DNA of 64,000 nt from Victivallis lenta (lineage in GTDB: Bacteria > Verrucomicrobiota > Lentisphaeria > Victivallales > Victivallaceae). Of this stretch, positions 58,308-59,405 are shown in pieces. The DNA is taken from the NCBI RefSeq assembly GCF_009695545.1, contig NZ_VUNS01000018.1, positions 1-64,000 of the forward strand, written 5' to 3'. The notes beneath the pieces are model-generated. The model was not told where the DNA came from. It searched no databases and saw nothing but the letters and a program-made list of their open reading frames with translations. The first letter of the stretch is position 1, and every line of letters begins with the position of its first letter. The position numbers and the translations under genes are program-made.

Positions 58308-59405
58308 ATGGTCGATCCGGATAAGAACAATCAAGATAACGCGCCGGTCGAGGACAGCGACGATACCAAGACCCGGAAAACCGTGCGTCTGCGGCCGTCG
58401 GTGACTCCTGCCGGAATCAATCTGACCCCGCTGCCGAAGGCTCCGCTCACCGATCCGCTGAGCGGCCGCGATACCGATACCGGCAACCTCGAGGTCATGG
58501 AAGACACCCAGACCCGCCGCACGGTCAAGCTCAAGCCGATTGCGACGCAGACCGCCGGCCCGTCGATCAAACCGGCGATTCCGATTGTCGGCAGGCCGGC
58601 GGGCGACGGCGCCAATACGCAGACCCGCAAAACCATCGTTCTCAAGCCGACTGCGGTTTCGCCTGCGAGCGTCAAGGTCAATGGTCCGGCAGACGCGGCT
58701 CCGTCCGACTCCGAAGACACCAAGACCCGGAAAACCGTGCGTCTACGGCCGTCGGCGGTCACCCCGGCCGGCGTGAAGATCGCCGGGGAGGACTCCGAGT
58801 CCGACCTCGACAGCAGCGATACGATCAAGATTGCCCGTCCGGCGCGCCCCGGCATGATTCCGCCGAAGGTGCCGGCTCCTGCCGCCCCGGCCGCCGATCC
58901 GTCGAAGGCGACCATGGTGCTGCCCGGCCACGGAGCAGAGCAGCAGTCGAAGGATGGAGTTCCTGTTGTGCTGCTGCATACGGTGCCGGCGGCGAGACCG
59001 CTGCCGGAGGGGACGGTCGGCCCGGATGTCCCCGGTTTGAAGGGGGCAGGCCACAAACCGGCCGTCAGCGATCATCTGCTGAAATCTGCCGGGAGCACGA
59101 ATGCTGCCGCGGCGGGCACGAGCGCTGCCGCCGCGGGCAAGGAGGCGAAGCCCGCAGCCGAAAAAGAGATCCAGGTTGCCGCCGTCAAAGAGGTCAAGCC
59201 TGCTGCGGAAGCGGAGGCGAAGCCCGCTGTCGAGCCGAAGTTCAAGCCGGCTCCCGCGGCCGGTGCGCCGTCGCGGCTTTACCTGACGCTGGCCGCCGTG
59301 AGCCTTGTGCTGATTGCGGTCACTGTGACGCTCACTGCGGTTCAGTATCTGAATTTGTGCCAGCAGCAGAATATCGAACTGCCGTTCCTGTCGCAGTCGA
59401 AATAA
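58308..59405 (+). CDS. Tail-anchored low-complexity protein with repeated Thr motifs
   Basis: 365 residues. The first 205 hold six Thr-x-x-Leu/Ile motifs (Thr25, 72, 109, 143, 172, 202). The first four sit in near-repeats such as DTKTRKTVRLRP and DTQTRRTVKLKP. An Ala/Lys/Glu/Pro-rich stretch (about 205-320) leads to one transmembrane helix near 322-346 (LYLTLAAVSLVLIAVTVTL) and a 17-residue tail. Thr with Leu/Ile at +3 matches what FHA domains bind when phosphorylated, so a phospho-docking scaffold is possible; this is inference. GAAAGGG precedes ATG 58308, and a terminator follows. Confidence 0.75.
   Translation: MVDPDKNNQDNAPVEDSDDTKTRKTVRLRPSVTPAGINLTPLPKAPLTDPLSGRDTDTGNLEVMEDTQTRRTVKLKPIATQTAGPSIKPAIPIVGRPAGDGANTQTRKTIVLKPTAVSPASVKVNGPADAAPSDSEDTKTRKTVRLRPSAVTPAGVKIAGEDSESDLDSSDTIKIARPARPGMIPPKVPAPAAPAADPSKATMVLPGHGAEQQSKDGVPVVLLHTVPAARPLPEGTVGPDVPGLKGAGHKPAVSDHLLKSAGSTNAAAAGTSAAAAGKEAKPAAEKEIQVAAVKEVKPAAEAEAKPAVEPKFKPAPAAGAPSRLYLTLAAVSLVLIAVTVTLTAVQYLNLCQQQNIELPFLSQSK

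Follow-up and report, generated by a model that had tools for sequence, protein, structure and literature searches.

What purpose could be served by a membrane-anchored protein whose long, apparently unstructured chain carries the same short threonine motif over and over again? This question is raised by a gene near the end of the window, i.e., the whole stretch of 64,000 nucleotides that was analyzed (bases 1–64000 of contig C18 in the 5.5 Mb genome of the gut-type bacterium Victivallis lenta, G000). ORF calling placed the gene on the plus strand at 58308–59405, with an ATG at 58308 and a stop codon at 59403–59405. Its product of 365 amino acids is divided, by the ORF and its orthologs, into a disordered part of 320 N-terminal residues and a C-terminal membrane anchor. 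An AlphaFold2 model built with 14 aligned orthologs had a mean pLDDT of 48.8; the N-terminal 320 residues were predicted to be disordered (block pLDDT of about 39–57), and the single confident helix comprises residues 323–351 (59274–59360, plus strand). The top hydrophobic 19-mer begins at residue 324, so that ORF calling, structure prediction, and hydrophobicity together bear out an earlier note on this DNA, which had described an ORF with one C-terminal membrane helix. The helix is followed by a short tail of 14 residues, the QNIELPFLSQSK end, which is conserved in the alignment (59361–59402, plus strand). As lysine and arginine residues precede the helix, the long N-terminal part is probably cytoplasmic, and the flanking charges predict that the post-helix tail lies across the membrane, on its far side. 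Scans against Pfam and NCBIfam returned nothing over the curated cut-offs (the sole Pfam match, BLOC1S3, was below cut-off) and detected no TssL-type cytoplasmic domain.

Within residues 1–205, we counted eight T-x-x-[LI] sites (T25, T48, T58, T72, T109, T143, T172, and T202) compared to 2.3 ± 1.4 in composition shuffles (P(≥8) = 7.5e-4), and five T[VI]x[LIV] sites compared to 0.52 (P = 5e-5); both P values are too favourable, as four of the sites belong to related repeats. The array of Thr-x-x-Leu/Ile motifs described in the earlier note therefore stands, while its count of six has to be raised to eight. Four sites lie in near-repeats of the form [DN]T[KQ]TR[KR]T[VI]xL[KR]P (residues 19–30, 66–77, 103–114, and 137–148), which agrees with the DT[KQ]TR[KR]T previously noted at four positions, except that the consensus starts with [DN]. 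All features are encoded on the plus strand. Units 1 and 4 both read DTKTRKTVRLRP (58362–58397, candidate acceptor T25, and 58716–58751, candidate acceptor T143) and unit 3 reads NTQTRKTIVLKP (58614–58649, candidate acceptor T109), each by motif count, DNA pattern, and dN/dS; unit 2, DTQTRRTVKLKP (58503–58538, candidate acceptor T72), was recognized by motif count and DNA pattern and is mostly invariant in the ortholog alignment. Three other motifs comprise RDTDTGNLEVM with T56 and T58, recognized in the ortholog alignment (58467–58499), the acidic-flank motif SSDTIKIARP with candidate acceptor T172, based on alignment and dN (58812–58841), and the SK-flank motif SKATMVLPG with candidate acceptor T202, based on alignment, motif count, and dN (58902–58928). 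Throughout the 5.5 Mb genome, the DNA pattern of the unit was matched four times within this gene and once outside, the latter likely by chance; neither this pattern nor a genome search revealed a second copy of the array.

A single-sequence search detected orthologs in 31 of 61 genomes, and a profile detected them in 90 of 197 genomes from the class; both counts include the own genome. Within Victivallaceae, the array gene is conserved as a single copy, and its repeat number is variable: the 29 orthologs compared, a set that includes broken or truncated sequences and the ORFs of G032 and G033 without tail helix, are 210–842 amino acids long, and the number of T[VIL]x[LIVM] sites ahead of the helix ranges from 2 to 14 per protein. 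Across 14 aligned orthologs, T56, T58, N60, and L61 of the TDTGNL motif are invariant and T172, P178, and T202 are present in at least 90%; T48 is not conserved, and most relatives have Ala at this position. The four units (48 codons) revealed zero amino-acid changes in the pairs G000–G003, G000–G002, and G003–G002; in the three comparisons that involve G008, dN was about 0.03, with dS of the units at 0.53–1.33 overall; between the window's own gene and G008, two amino-acid changes were found over all four units. Among the four closest species, dN was 0–0.03 for the three other motifs (30 codons, delimited by literal strings chosen after the alignment was viewed) and 0.09–0.63 for the linkers (215–222 codons compared, with the unconserved T48 left among them), the low value stemming from the closest pair, G003–G002. 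For G000–G003, dN amounted to 0.000 in the units (dS 0.90), 0.000 in the three other motifs (dS 0.99), and 0.341 in the linkers (dS 1.21), and the own gene compared to its closest relatives yielded 0.00–0.03 in motifs versus 0.34–0.63 in linkers. With dN near zero in the motifs and high in the linkers, selection preserves the motifs and not the intervening chain, and both dN/dS and the ortholog counts place the motifs far beyond chance.

The nature of the motif became apparent from the orthologs as well. With a pattern that left the acceptor position open, 126 units were collected, which carry T (111), S (7), V (5), or A (3) at this position. Counted from the core Thr, positions −5 and −3 are each occupied by Thr in 96 of 99 units and position +3 by Leu in 88 of 99, the pattern used for these 99 units having itself demanded an aliphatic residue there; positions +1 and +5 are also conserved in the unit table. 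Enrichment of the core against shuffles does not depend on this built-in +3 residue: after masking of the homologous units and TDTGNL with a pattern devised for the present analysis, the 29 orthologs still contained 109 T[VIL]x[LIVM] sites versus 20.3 ± 4.4 in composition shuffles, compared to 37 versus 22.2 expected for the Ser version and 17 versus 44.0 for the Ala version. The flanks of the core differ and may be basic (TRKTVKLKP), acidic (DDTIKIxRP), or of the SK type (SKxTVxLP). In eight divergent relatives from outside the family, the T-[IV]-x-[LI] core occurs 58 times (6.0 ± 2.4 expected; Ser-type, 2), in repeats that are differently framed around the same core, several of these relatives having repeats of their own, e.g., S[ST]PTIQ[IL]KKP; one of the eight, G135, lacks enrichment (1 site versus 0.57 expected). 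Since the same core recurs in different contexts, we define it as Thr, a beta-branched aliphatic residue at +1, and an aliphatic residue at +3. The locus thus encodes a real multivalent short-motif array with Thr at its centre, and dN/dS, the 126 units, and the eight relatives support the view that this array on a membrane anchor is under selection, with Thr preferred over Ser at the core. We also observed that the ortholog in the single-contig genome G037 (L116) repeats TIKP six times and has no T[VIL]x[LIVM]; without the T-x-x-aliphatic core, it still possesses the anchor and a neighbouring gene for a tetratricopeptide repeat (TPR) protein.

FHA domains are phospho-Thr-specific binders with a preference at +3, often for Leu or Ile. 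Tentatively, we take the array for a tail-anchored, multivalent docking strip on which a kinase would mark the Thr sites for recognition by FHA domains, a tail-anchored FHA protein being the first candidate, and give this reading slightly less than an even chance. The disordered cytoplasmic scaffold with its many T-[VI]-x-[LI] copies would be held at the membrane by its one C-terminal helix, a Hanks-type Ser/Thr kinase would phosphorylate the core Thr residues, and FHA domains would dock at the resulting phospho-Thr sites. Likeliest as reader is the small tail-anchored FHA protein P0002, whose gene immediately precedes ftsH; the array could gather several P0002 copies, and perhaps also Tad/CpaF-type ATPases with FHA domains, into a membrane patch that a PP2C phosphatase might reverse. 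An FHA-loop study (PMC4037201) terms the pT+3 rule controversial. Neither the invariant Thr pair (−5, −3) nor V/I at +1 is explained by this rule, and both require an additional cause, e.g., kinase specificity. The eight of 126 units with V or A where the phosphate would sit, the seven with Ser, the TIKP array of G037, and the missing enrichment in G135 also count against docking by phosphorylation.

Searched genome-wide for FHA and Hanks-kinase genes, the own genome yielded 7 FHA and 14 kinase matches, so the FHA proteins presupposed by the earlier note are encoded. FHA domains occur in all 61 genomes of the set, with and without a found array, and their presence is therefore not discriminating. 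At two kinase loci examined among the 14 matches, one T[VI]x[LIV] site was located outside the kinase domains. P0002 (G000:C17:14763-15290, locus L143; L130 6764-7291) has 176 amino acids, with a Thr-rich linker joining the FHA domain to a membrane helix at the C-terminus. Full-length matches were obtained in 60 of 61 genomes, G027 (80% complete) providing a weak match only, and in all five genomes with one FHA protein, it is the tail-anchored one. The residues that we take, from known FHA structures, to form the pThr pocket (Arg, Ser, His, Asn, and Gly) are kept in all 57 sequences examined, as is the tail helix, this set having been picked by profile with none of the 57 lost; three loci had been lost in an earlier alignment picked by a pattern with STNGT. 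By eye, the linker is of the type RTxT-I-x-[LI] in 20 and RTxT-G-I-x-[LI] in 16 of 36 sequences from family f1, and outside this family 13 of 21 have the latter and 8 other forms; the spacing of the array (T-[IL]-x-[LI]) is matched by the first form only. The T-x-T of this linker resembles the −5/−3 Thr pair of the array. Nearest solved relatives in a PDB search were Mycobacterium tuberculosis TB39.8, the Rv1747 FHA, and GarA, and the best NCBIfam score was 46 bits for FhaB_Rv0019c (cut-offs: 125 for FhaB, 200 for OdhI). Separately, contigs C45 and C2 of the own genome (L128 14346-16037; L129 9681-11423) harbour two secretion/pilus clusters whose CpaF-type ATPases, named by eye, have an N-terminal FHA domain and adjoin FHA proteins with a membrane helix.

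The genes for the array and the tail-anchored FHA protein are not neighbours, which is a further point against this reading. At 43 of 43 loci from 37 distinct genomes, the FHA gene is followed by ftsH at a distance of no more than 1.5 kb and in the same orientation (FtsH identity by Pfam and NCBIfam at one locus), and a PP2C-type phosphatase gene lies two genes upstream of the P0002 gene in the own genome. In G017, G037, G046, and G060, the opposite strand at FHA-ftsH starts, by eye, with trigger-factor, clpP, or clpX-like genes, and Pfam confirmed tig and clpP for G046. A further-reaching idea is that, in Lentisphaeria, the phosphorylated arrays serve a phospho-Thr quality-control platform at the membrane, where they would recruit the tail-anchored FHA protein as an adaptor of the membrane protease FtsH, so that kinase signalling would determine the place or the targets of degradation by FtsH. 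We regard this as a long shot, raised above a guess by ftsH standing next to the FHA gene in 37 of 37 genomes and by the position near tig-clpP-clpX-type genes in the four that were viewed.

The strongest rival, which we consider unlikely but still well worth weighing, is a strip that works independently of phosphorylation: peptides with T-[VI]-x-[LI]-x-P in extended form would directly bind a folded partner, most probably the TPR protein encoded by the adjacent gene, and hold it at the membrane. This gene of about 460 codons ends 9–179 bp upstream of the array on the same strand at 19 of 29 array loci and lies 4.4 kb off at one further locus; at the remaining nine, own genome included, no TPR gene was found beside the array (the contig of G030 ends just upstream). 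At 25 TPR loci without a known adjacent array, the next ORF is tail-anchored and mostly carries Thr motifs in seven additional genomes (G012, G024, G025, G029, G036, G037, and G051) and is a kinase in two, the downstream sequence being too short to judge in G004, G030, and G050. An all-helical solenoid with generic TPR relatives, the TPR protein would suit such a role; a fold search with its model returned generic TPR superhelices only. V or A at the acceptor in eight of 126 units argues for docking without phosphate, and conservation of +1 and +5 is what an extended bound strand would lead one to expect. On the other hand, the core prefers Thr over Ser, Val, and Ala (111 of 126), the TPR gene is located elsewhere and has diverged in the window's own genome, and 57 of 61 relatives possess the TPR protein, among them members of families in which no array was found. 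For the TPR protein as an FtsH adaptor, we make no claim, as LapB-type matches in the PDB sequence search were weak and the fold matches generic. Other ORFs of the window were dropped as partners: across the 29 loci compared, the regulator-type and membrane-protein ORFs are no recurrent neighbours of the array, and the helicase-type ORF recurs in three closely related genomes only.

Less probable still is that the array serves a kinase alone, as substrate or docking sites, and acts as a phosphate-accepting regulator or decoy whose charge alters its own membrane binding or condensation without any FHA reader. V/I at +1 and the basic or acidic flanks could reflect kinase selectivity, and a link between the TPR neighbour and a kinase gene exists in family f3. 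There, a gene that we take for a Ser/Thr kinase by its HRDxKxxN motif lies 27–185 bp after the TPR gene in five of five genomes (L114, L122, L257, L258, and L259), which ties the operon partner of the array indirectly to kinase signalling; no array was found in the genomes with this TPR-kinase pair, and the two kinases examined in the own genome resemble two from f3 at the domain level only. However, a substrate-only role does not account for the fixed aliphatic residue at +3 in all motif classes. Slightly below this we rank, as improbable, another sequence-specific partner that is neither FHA nor TPR, e.g., one for which DTxT is the true ligand and the T-V-x-L strand is supporting. The near-invariance of Thr at −5 and −3 fits this idea, as does DTxT being common to the TDTGNL motif, with a similar T-x-T in the tail-anchored FHA linker; however, DTxT is absent from the acidic-flank and SK-flank motifs and from the repeats of other families, all of which retain T-[VI]-x-[LI]. 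If the protein were a mere spacer or envelope linker of low-complexity Pro/Ala/Thr sequence, its repeats would be accidental and nothing would dock on them; this would fit the Ala/Pro/Lys-rich linkers and their freely varying length, but is very improbable given the dN of about zero in the motifs of the own gene and the same core in differently framed arrays.

Returning to the kinase-written, FHA-read docking strip, one close known counterpart is TssL-Fha of type VI secretion in Agrobacterium tumefaciens. There, TssL spans the inner membrane once, with its N-terminal part in the cytoplasm; a Ser/Thr kinase phosphorylates it on Thr, after which the FHA protein binds (PMC3953482). The array likewise belongs to a membrane protein with probably cytoplasmic Thr sites, the phosphorylation and FHA steps being those we propose here; however, TssL has one site (Thr14) and a conserved N-terminal cytoplasmic domain, whereas the array protein has four to many sites in a disordered chain and no TssL-type domain in family scans. 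M. tuberculosis Rv1747 forms condensates that PknF promotes and PstP reverses (Heinkel et al. 2019, as summarised in PMC9312465). This membrane protein combines FHA domains with a disordered region; the array shares disorder and membrane attachment, with the FHA candidate separate: Rv1747 is an ABC transporter with FHA and linker in one chain, whereas the array and its candidate FHA partner are two tail-anchored proteins. The candidate reader resembles FhaB/FipA, GarA, and OdhI in being small, with a single FHA domain and a Thr-rich flanking segment, and differs from the FhaB/OdhI type by scores far under the cut-offs, a C-terminal helix, and ftsH as gene neighbour.

Phospho-Thr–FHA signalling and tail anchors are thus known kinds. 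A freely varying motif array that is itself anchored in the membrane, and an FHA protein with a tail anchor whose gene stays next to ftsH, appear to be a variant of these: in the literature searched, we found no paper on the array protein, its motif, or the FHA-FtsH pair in Lentisphaeria. The tail-anchored FHA protein beside ftsH offers a testable partner and the repeats offer named peptides, and a cultured organism is available in Victivallis vadensis DSM 14823. If the docking strip is what we propose, an entire bacterial family would possess a kinase-written docking surface at the membrane whose copy number evolves freely, and would provide a natural multivalent system of a kind mostly discussed for eukaryotic signalling hubs.
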